Positions 4,851-59,310 of a DNA stretch of 64,000 bases are shown here, piece by piece. The translations under genes and the position numbers were made by a program. The notes beneath the pieces are model-generated. The model did not search any database. It had not been told where the DNA came from and worked only from the letters and a program-made list of their open reading frames with translations. Numbering within the stretch: the first letter of the stretch is position 1; each line of letters starts with the position of its first letter. The stretch is from Acidobacteriota bacterium. GTDB taxonomy: Bacteria > Acidobacteriota > Blastocatellia > Pyrinomonadales > Pyrinomonadaceae. The stretch spans positions 1 to 64,000 of the forward strand of contig JAOAPY010000014.1 in NCBI GenBank assembly GCA_025463135.1, in the 5' to 3' direction.

Positions 4851-5208
4851 CACAGACTTCAGTCTGTGTCCTGCCCCCTCGATCAATTGTGGATGGCGCT
4901 TTGGTTGTTTTCGAAGGCAGCTCTGGTCTGAAGCTTCGGCATTTGGGGCTCAGGAAGTGAGCAGTCAAGGCCGGGTAGAGCAGTCAGGAAGGGGACCCTG
5001 TCCCCGCTCAAGTTAGTAGGGGATTCATGAGGCAGTTAAACCTTGAATCCTACGCAAAGATAGATGCTGTTCTTGCCATTGTTCTCTGGGCCAGAGGAGC
5101 GGGGACAGGGTCCCCTTCCAAACTGCCCTGACCTTTCCTGACTGGCCCTATTACGGCTTGAAGTTTGTCGGACAGAATCAACCAAACTCAGACTGAAGTC
5201 TGGGCTAC
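4847..5208. repeat. Two-tier nested palindromic region
   Basis: The outer arms 4847-4866 and 5189-5208 are inverted copies of GTAGCNCAGACTTCAGTCTG with one mismatch. The inner arms 4987-5009 and 5097-5119 are a perfect 23-base inverted repeat (ggaaggggaccctgtccccg plus ctc). A family C half-site (GAAGTTTGTCGGAC) is at 5160-5173. This accounts for most of the 518-base gap before the TonB-dependent receptor gene; no gene was found in it. Confidence 0.85.
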
Positions 5209-24133: not shown

Positions 24134-24360
24134 GTAGTGCTCCATTAAGGTGTTGCTAAGAAAGGGGACGGTTCGAAGGCAATGAGGTCGGTACCACCTG
24201 CGGTAGCGGGTGGGTTGTCGTTGGAGCAGCAATAACGCCGAGAGGATCTGGTTTGCCCAGCGATCTTGTTCGGGAGCAGACCCACCCGCTACCGCAGGTG
24301 GTACTGACCTCATGCGTTCGAACCGTCCCCTTTTTTAGCAACACCTTAATGGAGCACTAC
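24134..24360. repeat. Palindromic element family A, complete copy (227 bp)
   Basis: Near-perfect inverted arms of about 80 bases begin GTAGTGCTCCATTAAGGTGT at the left and end with its exact reverse complement at the right. The outer 26 bases match fully. The arms also carry ACCCACCCGCTACCGCAGGT. The loop of about 65 bases matches the loop at 1-62 in inverted orientation. It fills the middle of the 602-base gap between deoC and the subtilase gene. Short open frames inside it are repeat artefacts; no gene is called. Confidence 0.92.
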
Positions 24361-30782: not shown

Positions 30783-32687
30783 GTGAAAGAGCCCGCCACA
30801 ATTTCGAACCCGGAGTATTCCGTTGACCGGATTGTCGCGCGGATGAAAGAGGCAGCCGCTCATAAGGGACCTCTTTCTGACGGCGCTTCGCTCGACGTGG
30901 TCACCTCCGCCGATCTGCGGCCCGCGCGGCGCAACGAGGGCACTCTGACAGAGATCAATACTCACCCCGTGCGCTTGCAACCGCTTTTTCACCCGCACAG
31001 TGATGGACGTTATCACGTCAACGATCTTCTGAAATATCACGATCGAACTTTCATTCAGAATGCCTATCGAGCGATCCTGAAGCGTGGTCCGGACGCCACC
31101 GGCTATCAATCCTTTATTGATAGTCTGCGGAGCGCTCGGCTGAACAAGATCGACATCCTGGCGCGGTTGCGATATTCGGCCGAGGGACGGGCCAAGCAGG
31201 TTGAGATTGAAGGACTGCGCCTGCCTGCGCTAATCAGGAAAGCTTATCGCGTGCCGATCCTGGGTTATTTGCTCAACCTGACTGTGGCGCTTGGCCGGCT
31301 GCCGTTGTTGATTCGCAGCCAGCAACAATTTGAAGCACACGTGTTGGCTCAACAGGAAATGATTGTTGAGCACTTAAATCATCTCGACCGTACGTTGCGC
31401 ACTCACGCCGGAGAAGTGTCGCAGGCGTTTGATAAAGACTCAGAGTCGAGCAAGGCGTTGGGCCTTCAAGTGCAGCAGCAGATCGAGCAGTCCCGCCAAC
31501 ACCTCGATCAAAAGATTGATCAGACCGAAGTCAGGCTGGAGCAGGCATTAAGGCAGAGCGAGCTGGAGCTGGCCGCGCGAGTGGCAAAAGATCTCGCGGA
31601 GTTGACTAGTCATATTGAACTCTCCAGCAACGAGCTCAAGCTTCAGGTAACAGCTCGCCTGGATGACGAAAATGCCCAGCGCGGGCAAGAGGTCGCCAGG
31701 CTGGGACAGCAAATCACCGAAGCCACCACCCGCTGGCAGCAAAACCTCGAGGCATTTGAAACTCGCTTGCAGCAATGGGGCCTGGCGTTGCGGTTAAAGG
31801 AAGCGCAGCTCACCCAGGCGGACTCCAACCGGCGCGAACAGATTGAACTGACGGCAAAAGATCTAAAGCGCGAGATGCAACTCGTCGTAGAGAAGCAACA
31901 ACAGGTCAGCACGGAACTGGTTTTACAGGGCGAGCGTCTGGTCACCCTGCTCGCCGAAGCGCGTAAACGTTTGCCCGCGCCTTTTGACGAGACCCAATTA
32001 AGCGCGATTGCAGGGGAAGAGGACCACAAGCTTGATGCTTTTTATGCGTCTTTTGATGAGCAGTTTCGTGGCAGTCGTGAGGAGATCAAGCAACGCCTTA
32101 AAGTTTATCTGCCAATCATTAACGAGCAGGGAATCGGCACCGAGCTCATGCCGCTGCTCGACGTGGGCTGTGGGCGCGGCGAGTGGCTCGAGCTGTTAAA
32201 AGAGAAAAGTCTTAGCGCCAGGGGCGTGGATGCAAATCGCATCCTGGTTGAGTGGTGCAGCGATCGCGGACTGGAAGTGACAGAGGATGATTTGCTTAGC
32301 GCTATGCATGAGCTGCCGGATGAAAGTCTCGGCGCGGTCACCGGCTTTCACATCATTGAACACCTGGCCATTGAAGAGCTGGTAGAGTTCTTGAATCAGG
32401 CGGTGCGCGTGTTGAAGCCGGGCGGTGTCGTAATCTTTGAAACTCCCAATCCGCAAAACGTGCTGGTGGGCAGCTGCAATTTTTATTTTGATCCAACTCA
32501 CCGCAACCCGCTACCAAGTCAGGTAACGAAATTTCTTCTGGAGTCCCGCGGCTTCGTTCGCGTCGAGGTAATTGATCTTAATCCATCCGACGATACGCCC
32601 GTTGACGAGAATTCCGAGGTGGCCCGTCGGTTCAATAAGTATTTTTATGGACCGATGGATTATGCGGTCGTAGGAATCAGACCATAA
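30783..32687 (+). CDS. DUF4214-coiled-coil-methyltransferase fusion
   Basis: The 634-residue protein has three parts. Residues ~78-140 resemble DUF4214 (HDRTFIQNAYRAILKRGPDA), then a short hydrophobic stretch (VPILGYLLNLTVALGRLPLL). Residues ~180-400 form a long coiled coil rich in Gln, Glu and Leu heptads. Residues ~455-634 are a class I SAM methyltransferase with motif LLDVGCGRGEWLELLKE, FHIIEHLAIEELVEFL and LKPGGVVIFETPNPQN. Similar enzymes lie in polysaccharide loci; by analogy with WbdD the coil could act as a chain-length ruler and the methyl group as a cap (inference). It is the first gene of the glycan region. Start GTG 30783. Confidence 0.85.
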   Translation: MKEPATISNPEYSVDRIVARMKEAAAHKGPLSDGASLDVVTSADLRPARRNEGTLTEINTHPVRLQPLFHPHSDGRYHVNDLLKYHDRTFIQNAYRAILKRGPDATGYQSFIDSLRSARLNKIDILARLRYSAEGRAKQVEIEGLRLPALIRKAYRVPILGYLLNLTVALGRLPLLIRSQQQFEAHVLAQQEMIVEHLNHLDRTLRTHAGEVSQAFDKDSESSKALGLQVQQQIEQSRQHLDQKIDQTEVRLEQALRQSELELAARVAKDLAELTSHIELSSNELKLQVTARLDDENAQRGQEVARLGQQITEATTRWQQNLEAFETRLQQWGLALRLKEAQLTQADSNRREQIELTAKDLKREMQLVVEKQQQVSTELVLQGERLVTLLAEARKRLPAPFDETQLSAIAGEEDHKLDAFYASFDEQFRGSREEIKQRLKVYLPIINEQGIGTELMPLLDVGCGRGEWLELLKEKSLSARGVDANRILVEWCSDRGLEVTEDDLLSAMHELPDESLGAVTGFHIIEHLAIEELVEFLNQAVRVLKPGGVVIFETPNPQNVLVGSCNFYFDPTHRNPLPSQVTKFLLESRGFVRVEVIDLNPSDDTPVDENSEVARRFNKYFYGPMDYAVVGIRP

Positions 32688-32694
32688 ATGATTG

Positions 32695-33210
32695 GGTCTT
32701 TGGTCTTTGGTTTTTGTTCTTTGGTTTTGTCTCATTCTCACCCGGTTTCAACCGGGTGGTACACATGGGCCATTTTTAGATCTAAACCGTTTTAACGGGA
32801 ATAATATACTTGGCTAACCTTCGCAACCGCGCTGTTGATTAAGAAGAGCCGTATTTTTCTTTGAGCTTGTGCAAATCTTCTGGTGCGTCAATCCATTCTT
32901 CACTGAAGCCACAGGAGCCACACAGGTATCGGGTGACTTTAACTGTTCTGAAGCTGAATCCGCCCGCAGGAATATCGTTACCGCCTGAATAACCACCAAT
33001 TCGCCCTTCGATGCGCATAATGTCCTGTGAATTGCATTTAGGACAGGTCTGTGTGTTTTTCATAGCTCTCAATTTACCTTTATTTGGAGTTGCGAAGTAT
33101 ATTATTGCCATTCAAACGGTTCAGGATTACAACGTATGACCCTCGTCACCCGGTTGAAACCGGGTGAGAATGAGACAAAACCAAAGAACAAAGACCAAAG
33201 ACCAAAGGCC
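32695..33210. mobile_element. Family D palindromic element enclosing a zinc-ribbon gene
   Basis: Two 64-base arms (32695-32758 and 33147-33210) are inverted copies with only two mismatches. The inner part of each is the family D motif CACCCGGTTGAAACCGGGTG with GAGAATGAGAC, and the outer part a purine tract CCAAAGAACAAAGACCAAAG. Between them, about 390 bases hold one small gene (32839-33063). The family D motif without cargo is present at 42980-43143 and 47461-47620. It looks like a gene-carrying non-autonomous element; no transposase is present. Confidence 0.7.
32839..33063 (-). CDS. Small zinc-ribbon protein
   Basis: This 74-residue protein (MKNTQTCPKCNSQDIMRIEG at the start) has two Cys pairs, CPKC near residues 7-10 and CGSC near 49-52, the usual four-Cys zinc ribbon, and a charged C-terminus (EDLHKLKEKYGSS). 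Small zinc ribbons of this type are often uncharacterised. ATG 33063 has GAGAGCT upstream; the longer frame above it runs into repeat sequence. It is the only gene inside a 64-bp inverted repeat pair, interrupts a series of plus-strand glycan genes and is on the opposite strand, consistent with insertion. Confidence 0.8.
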   Translation of the reverse strand: MKNTQTCPKCNSQDIMRIEGRIGGYSGGNDIPAGGFSFRTVKVTRYLCGSCGFSEEWIDAPEDLHKLKEKYGSS

Positions 33211-33245
33211 AAAGACCCAGGACCAAATTCCTTCATCGTCCATTT

Positions 33246-34292
33246 ATGCGCATTCTAATCGCCACCGTCCATGTGCCGTTTATACGCGGCGGCGCCGAGG
33301 TCCATGCCGAGGGGTTGCGCGATGCCCTGCGCGAGGCGGGGCACGAAGTTGAAATCATCGCCGTTCCTTTCAAGTGGTATCCACCCGAGCGGATAGTCGA
33401 TCACATGCTGGCATGCCGGCTCCTGGATGTTACAGAGGTCATGGGAACGCCGGTTGACTTGCTCATCGGTTTGCGCTTTCCCGCCTATTTGATACCGCAC
33501 CCAAACAAAGTTCTCTGGATCCTGCACCAGTTTCGCACCGCTTATGAGCTTTGGGACCATCAACTGGGCGACTTGATCTATTCGCCCAATGGCGCTGAAG
33601 TGCGCGACGCTATTCGGCAAGCCGACCGTCACTTCATCAGTCAGGCAAAAGCGATTTATGCAAACTCAGCCAACGTGGCGGCGCGATTAAAGTATTTTTG
33701 CGAGATCGAAGCGGCCCCCCTTTATCATCCGCCACTGCACGCCGAAAAGTTTTTTGTCGCGGAAGCCGAAGACTACTTCTTTTTTCCCAGCCGGCTTTGT
33801 TTGCCAAAGCGCCAGTCGCTGGTTCTCGAAGCGTTGGCCCATACGAAACAGCCCGTGCGCGTTCGCTTTGCCGGTGCGGCCGACCAGCCGGCATATCAAA
33901 GTGAGTTGAAGTCGCTGGCCCGCAAACTCCGCGTGCACAATCGCGTCGACTGGCTGGGTTCAATAGATGAGATGCAAAAGCGCGACCTGTATGCGCGGTC
34001 CCTGGGTGTGATTTATCCTCCGATCGATGAGGACTATGGTTATGTAACGCTGGAGGCGATGTTGGCTTCGAAGCCTTTGATTGTCTGTACTGATTCCGGT
34101 GGACCTTTGGAGTTTGTCCAGCATGAGAAAACTGGATTGATTGCAGAACCTGAAGCGGGGAGTATGGCCAAAGCGTTCGATCGACTTTGGCAGGATCGCA
34201 GCGCGGCAAGGAAATGGGGCGAGGCCGGCAATTCTCTCTACCGGGAAATGAATATTACGTGGGCGAATGTCGTGCGCAAGTTGTTGGCTTGA
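33246..34292 (+). CDS. Glycosyltransferase family 4-like
   Basis: This cytosolic GT-B glycosyltransferase has 348 residues. It starts MRILIATVHVPFIRGGAEVH, typical of GT4 enzymes, has a hinge and acceptor region in the middle (FFFPSRLCLPKRQSLVLEAL), and carries the nucleotide-sugar binding E-x7-E like segment DEDYGYVTLEAMLASKPLIV followed by TDSGGPLEFVQHEKTGLIAE. The sugar and acceptor cannot be told. It is first in a run of three GT4-like genes, all plus strand, after the coiled-coil methyltransferase; the run most likely assembles a surface polysaccharide. Confidence 0.92.
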   Translation: MRILIATVHVPFIRGGAEVHAEGLRDALREAGHEVEIIAVPFKWYPPERIVDHMLACRLLDVTEVMGTPVDLLIGLRFPAYLIPHPNKVLWILHQFRTAYELWDHQLGDLIYSPNGAEVRDAIRQADRHFISQAKAIYANSANVAARLKYFCEIEAAPLYHPPLHAEKFFVAEAEDYFFFPSRLCLPKRQSLVLEALAHTKQPVRVRFAGAADQPAYQSELKSLARKLRVHNRVDWLGSIDEMQKRDLYARSLGVIYPPIDEDYGYVTLEAMLASKPLIVCTDSGGPLEFVQHEKTGLIAEPEAGSMAKAFDRLWQDRSAARKWGEAGNSLYREMNITWANVVRKLLA

Positions 34293-42979: not shown

Positions 42980-43143
42980 TCATTCTCATTCTCACCCGGT
43001 TTCAACCGCGTGATCAGCCTCGTCATTTTTTCCTATAACCGTTTCAACGGTTCCAGCCGTTCAGGAGATTAGAACCCGTTAAGACGGTTCGGACATTAAC
43101 GGCAACCTGAGTCACCCGGTTGAAAATCGGGTGAGAATGAGAT
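42980..43143. repeat. Palindromic element family D, empty copy
   Basis: The left arm CTCATTCTCACCCGGTTTCA plus ACCGCGTG and right arm CACCCGGTTGAAAATCGGGT plus GAGAATGAG flank about 100 bases with inner hairpins (ACCGTTTCAACGGTT; ACCCGTTAAGACGGTT). It lies in the divergent gap between the methyltransferase and the PIG-V-like gene and must contain or flank both promoters. Confidence 0.85.
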
Positions 43144-44544: not shown

Positions 44545-47490
44545 ATGAACAGATCATTGTGGCAAAAGCGAATCAGCACCAGACGTGCCGACCTGGGTGC
44601 GATTCTTGTGATCCTCACGGTCTTTCTTGTCTTCTTCGCACCCGTGCTGTTCGGCGGCAAGATCTTCGTCACCAACGATTCCTTTGTCTACTCCTATCCG
44701 TTGCGGGCGCATGCCTGGGCCCAGATAAGAAATGGCTCGCTGCCGCTTTGGACTCCGCTGCTGATGTCCGGGTATCCGTTGTTGTCGATGGCCCAACTCG
44801 GAATCGGCTACCCGCTGACCTGGGGGTATTTGTTCCTGCCGAATTATCTGGCGGAAGAGATCTATGTAATGGCGCCGTTTCTGCTTGGGCCGATCTTCAT
44901 GTATGCGTGGATCAGGGTCAGCGGTCGCAGCCGTTTGGCGGCGCTGTTTGCGGCGCTGGCTTTCGGCTATGGCGGGATGATGTTCAGTCCCATAGCGCAC
45001 AATGGGATGCTGACCAACACTTTCATGTGGACACCGCTGATACTGATTGCTATTGAGCGGGCCCGAAGCAAACCTTTCGCCCGCTGTTTTTTCTGGGCCA
45101 CCGCTGCCTATGCTATGTGCGCGCTGACCGGAATTGGCCAGGGAGTGGTGACGGTAACGATTCTCACCCTCGTCTATGCCGCGTTCGTTGGGCTGGCGGC
45201 CAATCATCTCGCCTCTAACGAGAGTCTGGGTTGGCTTACCTGGGCACGCTGGCGTCCGCTCGCCGTCGCGCTTGGCGCAGTGGCTCTTGGATCGGGCATC
45301 GCGGCATTTCAAATACTCGAGACAGTGTCGGCGCAGCGGCTCAGCATTAGGAGGGTGCTTTCTTATGAGACGTTTAGCGAGGGGGCCTTTTCGCCGTTGA
45401 AGGGCTTGAAGTCGATGCTGGCCCCGCTCTATTACCAATCCGACGTAACCACCTACATGGTCCCGCTGGCGCTGATATTGGCGCTGCCGGCGCTCGCCGA
45501 TTTTGTGTTCGGGCGATCGCCGCGTGATCTCAGAATTATTTTCTGGTTGGTTGTGGCAGTACTTGCCTGGATATTCATCCTGGGACCAAACACGCCTCTT
45601 TATCGATATATCTACCTGATTCCAATTCTGAATAAATTTCGAGTCCCTTCGCGGCATGCATTCGAATGGACCTTTGCCGTCGCCGTTCTGTCGGCCTATG
45701 GCTGGGACATAATCAGTGATTACTGGGCGGCACGAGCAAAGAATTCCGCCGCGCATCTTCAGAAGATCAGGCTGCTCGGCGGTTGGTTGGCACTCGCGCT
45801 CGCGGTTGTGGTGGCACTTGTGTGGTGGCTGAGCAATCATGAAATCACGGGCAATGTAACGGAGTCGCAGCTCCTGAATCAGTACCTTCGTTGGAAGACA
45901 CTGTTCGCGCTCCTCGCGTTGATCGGCATCTGGCAGGCGTGGCGACTGGTCTCCGTAACCCGTCGCACAGTTCTGTTGGCTGCCGCGATTGCACTCGTTT
46001 GTTTCTTTGAACCGGCGCTCGCTGCCTCTTACTGGTGGTGGCCAAAGGCAAAGACGGCCGATCGTTTTCAAGCCGAAGCAATCGCCACACGCTTTCTGAA
46101 AGAAAAAAATCCTCAACACGATCGGATCTATACGCATACCAGCATCTGGGCGGAAGAATACATGCGGGCTCCGCGAATCGATCCGCCGAATCTGTCAGCC
46201 GTACAGGGATTGCGCGACGTCGGAGGCTATGAACCCTTGTTCCCTGAACGGTACAGTCGCGCCCTTGGTAACGTTACTAATGATGGAGTCTACCCGCGAC
46301 CGGGTTACGCTTTCGACGACACCATTTTTGCCGCTAGCTCGCACGTGCTTGATCTCTTAAACACTCGCTTCGCCATTGCGTATGCAAACCTCTCAACTAT
46401 TCCCGACAATCTGCACGAGAAAGACGGCGTCAGGTTTTTCAGGTATGACTCTTACTTTGTCGTGAAGCCCGGGGAGCGCAAAAGGCTGAACGCCGCCAAC
46501 AGGGAATGCGATGCGGTGGCGTTGGTGACGGCATTGGGACATTCAGCTGCTACGCAACAGGGAACGGTAGTCGCGAAACTGCATTTCCGGGCGGCTGATG
46601 GACGCGTGATTGAACGCGAGTTGCGCGCCGGCGTCGACAGCTCTGAATGGTCAATCGAGCGTCCCGAAATTGCCGCCACTATGCAGCACGAGAAGGCCAC
46701 TGTTTTTGATAGTCACCCCGCGGACGACGGTAACTTTCCGTCCTATCGCTTCTGGTCGTTATCACGCCTGAACCAACGCGTGCGACTCGACGCAGTGGAG
46801 ATCGAGAACGTCTCTTCCATTGTGGAGGTACAGGTTTGGAAAACAAGCCTCTATGATTCGGCCTCGCAGCGCTCCTATCCTTTACCCCATTACGACGAGG
46901 ACAAATGGCGCACGGTCTATGATGCGAACAACGTGCTGATAATTGAGAACCAAAGGCCGATGCCGCGAGCCTGGCTGGTGGCCGAGGCCGAGGCGGTAAG
47001 CGGCGAAGAGAGCTTGCGGCGCATACGCGGCGAAAGCGAAAAGCCATTCGACCCGCGGCGAACGGCACTCCTGGAAGTTTTGCCGGAGCAACTCCCACAG
47101 TTACCTGGTGGGCCCATTGCCGCAAATGCGCGCGCGCAACTTGTTGCTGAAACGCCCCGTCACCTCAGCATCGATACGACCACGGATAAGCAGTCATTGT
47201 TGGTCGTAAGTGAGAGCAACTACCCGGGATGGGAAGCGACTGTGGACGGCGCCCGCGTGCCAATATACACGACGGACTTTCTCTTGCGCGGGGTAGCGGT
47301 GCCGCCAGGGACTCATCGTGTGGAGATGCTCTATGCGGCGCCTGCCGCACGCAACGGCGCAGTGATTTCGGTCGTGGCTCTCGGCGCTGCGCTTGCGCTA
47401 GGTCTTTATTCTCGACGACGGCAGGCTAAGGAAAATTCCGCCGTTGAAGCAGTGAATTCGTCTCATTCAAAGCCGGTTTCAACCGGGTGA
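44545..47490 (+). CDS. YfhO-family GT-C-like membrane protein (paralog 1)
   Basis: This 981-residue protein has about 12 membrane helices in the first ~480 residues (ADLGAILVILTVFLVFF; LPLWTPLLMSGYPLLSMAQL; FRVPSRHAFEWTFAVAVLSA), a large external beta-rich region (~490-930) and a final helix (NGAVISVVALGAALALGLY). YfhO-type proteins are linked to glycosylation of surface polymers. Near the end NYPGWEATVDGARVPIYTTD is a typical family motif. The last ten codons and the stop lie within a family D repeat, so the cytosolic tail is repeat-derived. A second paralog starts at 61582. Confidence 0.88.
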   Translation: MNRSLWQKRISTRRADLGAILVILTVFLVFFAPVLFGGKIFVTNDSFVYSYPLRAHAWAQIRNGSLPLWTPLLMSGYPLLSMAQLGIGYPLTWGYLFLPNYLAEEIYVMAPFLLGPIFMYAWIRVSGRSRLAALFAALAFGYGGMMFSPIAHNGMLTNTFMWTPLILIAIERARSKPFARCFFWATAAYAMCALTGIGQGVVTVTILTLVYAAFVGLAANHLASNESLGWLTWARWRPLAVALGAVALGSGIAAFQILETVSAQRLSIRRVLSYETFSEGAFSPLKGLKSMLAPLYYQSDVTTYMVPLALILALPALADFVFGRSPRDLRIIFWLVVAVLAWIFILGPNTPLYRYIYLIPILNKFRVPSRHAFEWTFAVAVLSAYGWDIISDYWAARAKNSAAHLQKIRLLGGWLALALAVVVALVWWLSNHEITGNVTESQLLNQYLRWKTLFALLALIGIWQAWRLVSVTRRTVLLAAAIALVCFFEPALAASYWWWPKAKTADRFQAEAIATRFLKEKNPQHDRIYTHTSIWAEEYMRAPRIDPPNLSAVQGLRDVGGYEPLFPERYSRALGNVTNDGVYPRPGYAFDDTIFAASSHVLDLLNTRFAIAYANLSTIPDNLHEKDGVRFFRYDSYFVVKPGERKRLNAANRECDAVALVTALGHSAATQQGTVVAKLHFRAADGRVIERELRAGVDSSEWSIERPEIAATMQHEKATVFDSHPADDGNFPSYRFWSLSRLNQRVRLDAVEIENVSSIVEVQVWKTSLYDSASQRSYPLPHYDEDKWRTVYDANNVLIIENQRPMPRAWLVAEAEAVSGEESLRRIRGESEKPFDPRRTALLEVLPEQLPQLPGGPIAANARAQLVAETPRHLSIDTTTDKQSLLVVSESNYPGWEATVDGARVPIYTTDFLLRGVAVPPGTHRVEMLYAAPAARNGAVISVVALGAALALGLYSRRRQAKENSAVEAVNSSHSKPVSTG

Positions 47491-47620
47491 CTTTGGGCAA
47501 CAAAAACTCTGCCTAACCGTTTCAACGGTTTCGGATTGGCGGCCGCAGGGTAAATCGTTGAAACGATTTTGGGAGCCAGGAACAAGTTCACCCGGTTGAA
47601 CGCGGGGTGTGAATGAGATG
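47461..47620. repeat. Palindromic element family D overlapping a gene end
   Basis: The left arm TCTCATTCAAAGCCGGTTTC plus AACCGGGTGA contains the last codons and TGA of the YfhO-like gene. The right arm CACCCGGTTGAACGCGGGGT plus GTGAATGAG ends at 47620, with inner hairpins around CCGTTTCAACGGTTT and ATCGTTGAAACGATT. It also fills the convergent gap before the gene ending at 47696. Confidence 0.85.
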
Positions 47621-59090: not shown

Positions 59091-59130
59091 ACTCGACATT
59101 CGAGCAATGAAGATGTTGTGTGCTAATGCG

Positions 59131-59310
59131 GTCCGTAGGAGCGAAATGTTTATAGAATCGCGGCCTCCTCTCTTGCCAGATCCCATAGGAGCGAAGATGT
59201 AACAGTTGTTGGCACTTCGTCATTGCGAGCAAGCACACTTCGCTCCTTACGGAGCTGAAGTCTTTGTCATCTGGATCATCTATAAACATTCTGCTCCTAC
59301 GGAGCGAGAC
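59131..59310. repeat. Two-tier intergenic palindrome (CGTAGGAGCGAAATGTTTATAGA)
   Basis: Outer arms 59131-59160 (CCGTAGGAGCGAAATGTTTA plus TAGA) and 59278-59310 (TCTATAAACATTCTGCTCCT plus ACGGAGCG) are imperfect inverted copies; an inner pair (ATAGGAGCGAAG; CTTCGCTCCTTA) nests within. It fills most of the 300-base gap before the UbiA-type gene. Confidence 0.8.

Follow-up and report, generated by a model that had tools for sequence, protein, structure and literature searches.

The window, a 64,000-nucleotide stretch of contig JAOAPY010000014.1 (assembly GCA_025463135.1) from an Acidobacteriota bacterium of the family Pyrinomonadaceae, contains at 32.7-33.2 kb a nested palindromic feature, flanked on the left by a plus-strand gene encoding DUF4214 and methyltransferase domains (30783-32687) and on the right by a plus-strand gene encoding a GT4 glycosyltransferase (33246-34292). 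An inverted-repeat search placed the arms at 32692-32758 and 33147-33213 (67 nt, 96% complementarity, 388 nt between); no longer inverted repeat was detected in the window with the settings used, and the next two measure 48 nt. A second pair (32782-32814 / 33092-33124, 85%) is nested within the arms, and the middle of the nested repeats is occupied by a single minus-strand ORF (32839-33111), in agreement with the first-pass annotation, which had described a small gene on the strand opposite to its neighbours. The region folds far better than its shuffles by DNA energy (z -9.1, 0/100 shuffles), and the single-stranded DNA fold of the whole feature has the arms paired. Rfam detected two tRNAs in the window and no other RNA, and none in L078, L175 or L122, so that a known RNA was rejected as the identity of the feature. 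An integron attC origin of the palindrome was likewise rejected, since by eye the GTT/AAC motifs at the gene flanks, read against what we take to be the attC core motifs (here and for the metagenome-assembled genome (MAG) discussed below), lie in the opposite sense to those of a cassette. No integron integrase in the genome reached the cut-off of TIGR02249, a profile that rings below cut-off in 14/14 control genomes.

Read from left to right, the feature starts with a minus-strand tract of CTTTGGT repeats (32691-32724), which is the left half of an independent CCAAAGA palindrome family and the inverted partner of the CCAAAGA repeats on the plus strand at the far right (33181-33221). Between these tracts lie the parts of the element proper, described here on the plus strand. 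The left element end (32730-32758) consists of the tip TCTCATTC and the outer hairpin CACCCGGTTTCAACCGGGTG (32739-32758), followed by the left inner hairpin AACCGTTTTAACGG (32785-32800; family consensus AACCGTTTCAACGGTT) and by the left copy (32800-32827) of an innermost inverted repeat, AATAATATACTT...TTCGCAAC, which encloses the gene. On the other side of the gene are the right copy of this repeat (GTTGCGAAGTATATTATT, 33089-33106), a degenerate right inner hairpin (CATTCAAACGGTT, 33107-33124) scoring under the match threshold of the copy scan, and the right element end (33147-33175), with the outer hairpin CACCCGGTTGAAACCGGGTG (33147-33166) and the tip GAATGAGA. The innermost repeat was seen in none of the other element copies in the sampled stretches of the same genome. 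When the inner 388 bp were compared with the whole genome, the only matches were to their own arms and to a 22-nt stretch attributable to chance.

The inverted repeat of the first-pass annotation is thus real, and its description as 64-base arms of a single kind was ruled out, because each arm is a composite of two separate families: the outer ~35 nt are a CTTTGG/CCAAAG heptad tract, and only the inner ~30 nt are an element end. A 20-mer of the heptad, allowing ≤3 mismatches, has 389 matches in the genome, compared with 10 for a reversed control, and the sampled stretches contain 267 heptad blocks forming 53 inverted pairs. Five of these pairs, the window locus included, enclose a copy or part-copy of the hairpin element, and several others enclose other palindromes. 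Nested palindromes of this kind therefore occur at many places in the genome, the window copy being one of them.

The element part of the arm is dispersed through the own genome, in which 65 exact half-ends were counted and the outer hairpin pattern has 72 exact matches. Among 35 other genomes, the pattern has one exact match (in G002, inside a full copy) and none in the other 34, all exact-pattern counts being lower bounds. A scan of 1.63 Mb of the own genome (the window and 80 further stretches, making 81 sources with a single overlap, of 6 kb, on contig C32) yielded 45 two-ended copies, comprising 36 of 144-165 bp, eight of 178-199 bp and one of 671 bp; the stretches were chosen mostly around hairpins, tracts or Y1 genes, contig C15 alone being nearly whole, and densities in them are not genome averages. 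One inner hairpin falls under the match threshold in 13 of the 45. Most two-ended copies seen are empty and ~160 bp long. Two of them lie in the window, at 42984-43142 (159 bp) and 47461-47618 (158 bp), and have the tip, outer hairpin and inner hairpin in common with the locus at 32.7-33.2 kb, bearing out the first-pass annotation, which had placed empty elements at 42980-43143 and 47461-47620. The copy at 42984-43142, as single-stranded DNA, also folds with its arms paired (z -7.2).

In the consensus of 36 aligned standard copies, the tip TCTCATTC is followed by the outer hairpin CACCCGGTTTCAACCGGGTG, a spacer, the inner hairpin AACCGTTTCAACGGTT, a loop and the inverted image of the whole, the outer and inner hairpins of each half mostly having a TTCA apex. 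Simple shuffles of 40 stretches contained no half-element. Among the 36 copies, the four hairpins have a pairwise identity of 85-91%, the three spacers one of 31-34% and the flanks one of 25-26%. Because the search for copies relied on the tip and the inner hairpin, and most of the stretches searched surround exact outer hairpins, the hairpin identity, and not that of the spacers, is partly a product of selection of the copies. Spacers this close to random are not predicted by recent copy-and-paste of the whole unit for most copies, and would fit old copies with maintained hairpins. The best sequence sign of recent spread is a subfamily of five copies on five contigs (L107:10973, L114:5530, L120:11936, L164:10102 and L182:9947), whose best pairwise alignments span 290-304 bp with 79-92% identity. 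Their likeness extends about 40-58 nt past each tip, indicating that the repeated unit in this subfamily is larger than the tip-to-tip element. Solo outer hairpins with a tip at either end occur at three places (L115:2943, L122:7498 and L127:11891), resembling what would remain of an element after loss of its interior.

The first-pass annotation had described a family with empty and gene-loaded forms, which holds, and with no transposase, which does not. A Pfam Y1_Tnp search of the genome found six places, and the Y1 gene at C27:169414-169758, outside the window, lies inside a complete 671-bp element copy (C27:169258-169928). It fills the space between two inner hairpins of consensus sequence, which is the slot of the zinc-ribbon gene at the window locus; the outer hairpins of this copy have diverged stems. 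The encoded protein matches PF01797 (Y1_Tnp) with 76 bits and the IS200 profile NF033573 with 59.6 bits (cut-off 55), the latter also matching relatives with 62.2 bits (L198) or just under the cut-off (54.7 bits for L200 and 52.6 for L201). The profile for the REP-associated tyrosine transposase, NF047646 (cut-off 80), has no match in the own enzyme or in L201 and gives 24.3 and 19.6 bits for L198 and L200, and by profile the C27 enzyme is IS200-like rather than REP-associated. Its predicted fold has a mean pLDDT of 74.5, and 29 of the 30 PDB matches in a fold search at E≤0.001 are IS200/IS605-type transposases (IS608, ISDra2 and others), the thirtieth being TnpA_REP; by sequence, no solved relative was found at E≤0.001.

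Some Y1 relative is present at E≤1e-8 in 90/119 genomes of the family, own genome included. The association of the transposase gene with the element hairpins is conserved: the nine closest transposases among the matches listed, with 65-89% identity to the own enzyme, all keep element hairpins, with both ends present in six (G125, G029, G128, G121, G033 and G137) and a surviving single end in three incomplete genes (G120, G129 and G002). Stops were flagged in the G029 and G033 transposase genes, and that of G137 is divided between two frames. As a control, the inner hairpin occurs in the flanks of 0/20 more distant listed Y1 loci, and it is also missing from the flanks of the own genome's second Y1 gene, on C29; this flank comparison comprises 30 loci, with short flanks at contig ends in L203, L210, L216, L220 and L221. 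Across genomes the outer stem varies (CACCCGGT, CCCCAACC, CCCCGACC, CACCGGGC), each form having a matching partner, and CCCCAACC is the stem of the G128 type. In a covariation test, five of eight pairs were changed on both sides, with four distinct rows; the covariation score was reached by 0/500 shuffles, and two other measures were reached by 37/500 and 174/500; the set consisted of eight hairpins picked by a script demanding a stem, so its 100% pairing is partly due to selection, and bulged outer hairpins were left out (L197, L198 right, L199 right, L202 and L222). A scan of five relatives, which catches only pairs with both inner hairpins exact, found four such pairs >100 nt apart, all holding tnpA. 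The earlier question of whether loaded copies always hold the same gene is thereby answered in the negative, as the other gene-bearing copies seen hold the transposase. In L201 (G121, 553-1154), the gene of a tnpA copy is both preceded and followed by a pair of hairpins of the inner type.

The gene at the window locus (32839-33111, minus strand) encodes 90 aa from its first ATG and 74 aa from the start common to its homologs (MKNT, at 33063), making 33061-33063 the likely start codon. The protein contains CPKC and CGSC, and 12 aligned sequences, its own included, share PKC, N, RY, C and CGFSEEW. All Pfam and NCBIfam zinc-ribbon matches of the protein are under cut-off. Its predicted model has a mean pLDDT of 85.7, and a fold search found no significant match, the best (E 0.26 and up) including zinc-ribbon subunits of RNA polymerases and TFIIS; solved relatives by sequence appear only at E≥0.7. 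The gene is single copy in its genome. In a search of 162 genomes of the class (own included), a relative at E≤1e-6 was seen in only one besides the own, with 35% identity, and a close relative in none; a separate search returned a 32% match in one of 59 other genomes. Members of the family were found in unrelated bacteria, including Clostridia, Bradyrhizobium and Chloroflexi. Plasmids returned two matches at ≤51% and viral contigs one at 48%, and searches of PHROGs and PADLOC gave one weak family of unknown function and one chance-level match, respectively.

A gene in an Abditibacteriaceae MAG (phylum Abditibacteriota) has 91.4% DNA identity to it over 62 aligned codons; upstream the homology extends barely beyond the start, and downstream a few bases past the stop. 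A gene on the same MAG contig, presumably rpiB judging by its sequence, reaches no more than 42-44% identity with the two rpiB-like places in the sampled stretches of the own genome, which makes vertical descent an unlikely explanation of the 91% likeness, and also supports placing the own genome in another phylum than the MAG. The zinc-ribbon gene has 46% G+C in a window of 55%, and dN/dS between the two zinc-ribbon genes is 0.49, resting on 16 changes. Judged by these sequence comparisons, the gene is of foreign origin and a recent arrival by horizontal transfer. In the MAG (L078:150-610), the zinc-ribbon gene lies, by eye, between two attC-like ends, with similar 3' ends at 220 and 577, suggesting a possible integron cassette; the 37-nt inverted repeats there match at only 70%, and the MAG gene has a frameshift near its end.

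The site between the methyltransferase and GT4 genes was followed in seven relatives with a methyltransferase match, with 1.5-kb flanks, and GT4 is within reach in two of them (G015 and G022), both of which keep the methyltransferase-GT4-GT4b order. Their syntenic gaps, where the first-pass annotation had asked for a clean empty site, lack both the zinc-ribbon gene and the element. The gap is 3 bases in G022 and 123 bases in G015, where it holds a different heptad palindrome, of ACTGAAA repeats (L145). Period-7 palindromes thus recur at this position in a different genus. Identity to the own proteins is 45-53% for the methyltransferase and 64-71% for GT4, making this an old comparison that gives no exact insertion point. 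The two outcomes named beforehand as contrary to a mobile element, relatives keeping the gene at this place without the arms and arms occurring nowhere else in the genome, were not seen, the former in the two relatives followed at the site.

These observations are best explained by a transposase-associated family of short palindromic elements, whose Y1-bearing copy would act in trans and one copy of which carries a transferred passenger gene, a reading to which we assign a probability of about 0.75. The feature in the window is one copy of this dispersed family. Each half of an element is built of two hairpins, an inner one and an outer one bearing the tip TCTCATTC, and the right half is the inverted image of the left. 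The full 671-bp copy carries the gene for the IS200/IS605-like Y1 (HUH) transposase, and, by analogy with TnpA and TnpA_REP acting on IS200/IS605 ends and REPs, the empty ~160-bp derivatives would be acted on in trans through their single-stranded hairpins. At 32.7-33.2 kb, the slot between the inner hairpins holds the horizontally acquired zinc-ribbon gene, which is enclosed by the further short inverted repeat. The assignment to a REPIN-like, Y1-transposase-associated family is well supported, and the zinc-ribbon gene in one of its copies is a passenger. A gene other than tnpA in the slot is so far a single case: neither a second copy loaded with the zinc-ribbon gene nor any other passenger gene was found in the copies seen. 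Of the earlier proposal of a non-autonomous mobile unit that had picked up cargo, the dispersed family and the foreign gene stand; the family has a transposase, and movement of the cargo was not seen, the gene being single copy and the inner 388 bp unmatched in the genome.

The gene may have entered the loop of an empty copy or taken the place of the transposase gene; the two routes appear equally possible, and the order of events is a matter of inference. The identity of the slot with that of tnpA suggests replacement, and no DNA trace of a transposase gene was found in the window copy. Insertion into the loop is suggested by two copies (L120:10828 and L125:14881) with both outer ends and an unrelated palindrome in the loop, and by L095:8110, with both outer ends around another palindrome and inner hairpins that are unrecognisable.

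The same copies lend weight to the most serious competing explanation, which we rate at somewhat less than even odds, that some unrelated event brought the gene into the tolerant loop of an immobile, decayed empty copy, and that the gene has no functional tie to the element. This explanation is compatible with the element family, denying only that the element matters for the gene. Another palindrome adjoins the single half at L185:16271, and a gene other than tnpA is present in just one copy, the four exact inner-hairpin pairs of the relatives all holding tnpA. However, the gene is bordered symmetrically by AATAATATACTT...TTCGCAAC, whereas after a simple insertion one of the two sides should still have the old loop whole, and the zinc-ribbon slot coincides with the tnpA slot.

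That the palindromes act at the RNA or chromosome level, as terminators or mRNA ends, with hairpins kept by selection and not by transposition, is improbable. None of the 45 copies lies within an ORF of 150 aa or more, which also counts in favour of the preferred family, and the conservation of the hairpins and not of the spacers would suit such a role, but it does not account for the four-hairpin layout around a Y1 gene in ten loci versus 0/20 distant listed Y1 loci, the likeness of the five-copy subfamily over about 300 bp, or copy numbers that differ as widely as 72 exact matches here, one in G002 and none in 34 other genomes. The gene lies inside the element, and nucleic acids are among the ligands of zinc ribbons, but the suggestion of the first-pass annotation that the protein recognises the element, as well as a role in regulating its transposase, is very improbable and was rejected, since the protein family is present in unrelated bacteria, relatives that have element ends lack a close copy of the gene, and no fold match was significant (best E 0.26).

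The preferred transposase-associated family is similar to the REPIN/REPtron systems, in which the gene for a Y1 HUH enzyme (RAYT, equivalent to TnpA_REP) is flanked by dispersed palindromes in inverted pairs, generally with one full-length enzyme gene per REP type, in the parts of the source considered (PMC6006769). REP pairs have been described as a mobile unit (PMC3116915), and the spacers of some REP dimers are described as differing in sequence and keeping their length (PMC3733652). Here too the palindromes are conserved (85-91% in the hairpins) and the spacers variable (31-34%), among 36 selected copies. By contrast, the elements here have two palindromes per half instead of one, lack the GT[AG]G foot (by eye, the consensus is TCTCATTCT at the outer hairpin and variable before the inner), are associated with an enzyme that scores as IS200 and not as a REP-associated transposase, and in one copy hold a foreign gene in the slot. 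IS200/IS605 elements share the transposase family, by profile and predicted fold, and the hairpins near the ends. They differ in that the elements here have two hairpins per end, with ends that are inverted images of each other, and comprise one full element and many short derivatives, the 671 bp leaving no room for tnpB. In the broad sense, the short copies resemble MITEs, being without a transposase and having ends common to a transposase-bearing copy in the genome. They also resemble the PATEs of Haloquadratum, described as short derivatives of an IS605-type transposon with near-terminal palindromes and as frequent targets of other elements (PMC3119063). PATEs are described there as lacking terminal inverted repeats, unlike the elements here with their inverted tips (TCTCATTC/GAATGAGA), and the passenger case in the relevant passages of that paper is an ORF in an ISH2-type MITE and not in a PATE (PMC3119063).

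By motif only, the own enzyme resembles subclass 1.2 of the TnpA_Y1 classification of Quentin et al. 2018 (PMC6006769), with which it shares a low copy number and a Y motif of the type YIxxQxEHH (YIAQQEEHH in L197), its W motif being WG in place of the WQ of the published table. In the sections of that classification considered, subclass 1.2 is assigned no REP and generally no IS200-type terminal structures, and is found mainly in Cyanobacteria and Bacteroidetes (PMC6006769). Class 3, which contains TnpA of Acidobacteria, was rejected, as its Y motif is given in the table as YV..EQ, compared with YI..QEEHH here (PMC6006769).

The family described here pairs a Y1 enzyme of 1.2-type motif with REPIN-like hairpins, which that part of the classification does not list for subclass 1.2 (PMC6006769). 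A limited literature search found no passenger or cargo gene in IS605 MITEs or REPINs. To our knowledge, REPINs and miniatures derived from IS200 are generally regarded as carrying no genes. The copy whose transposase slot is occupied by a recently transferred gene offers a way to test whether hairpin ends of this kind can move genes, and recognition can be studied by pairing the stem variants of different genomes with the variants of the enzyme. A bolder proposal, which we consider doubtful, is that hairpin-ended elements with a 1.2-type Y1 transposase may be minimal single-strand gene carriers, with an exchangeable slot and a foreign gene mobilised in trans; if true, this would constitute a gene-capture route needing only four hairpins and no cargo-linked enzyme.

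Other palindromes were observed in the window. At 24134-24360, two are nested, 48 nt at 96% around 34 nt at 97%, and the inner one is of the CCACCTGCG(G)TA(A)GCGGGTGG type, as in the loops of the element copies in L120 and L125. Those at 4962-5144, 1697-1805 and 59129-59306 belong to other families (the GGGGACCCTGTCCCC, GCGCACTTGTGCGC and AATGTTTATAG types), which also fill some of the CCAAAG tract pairs elsewhere in the genome.
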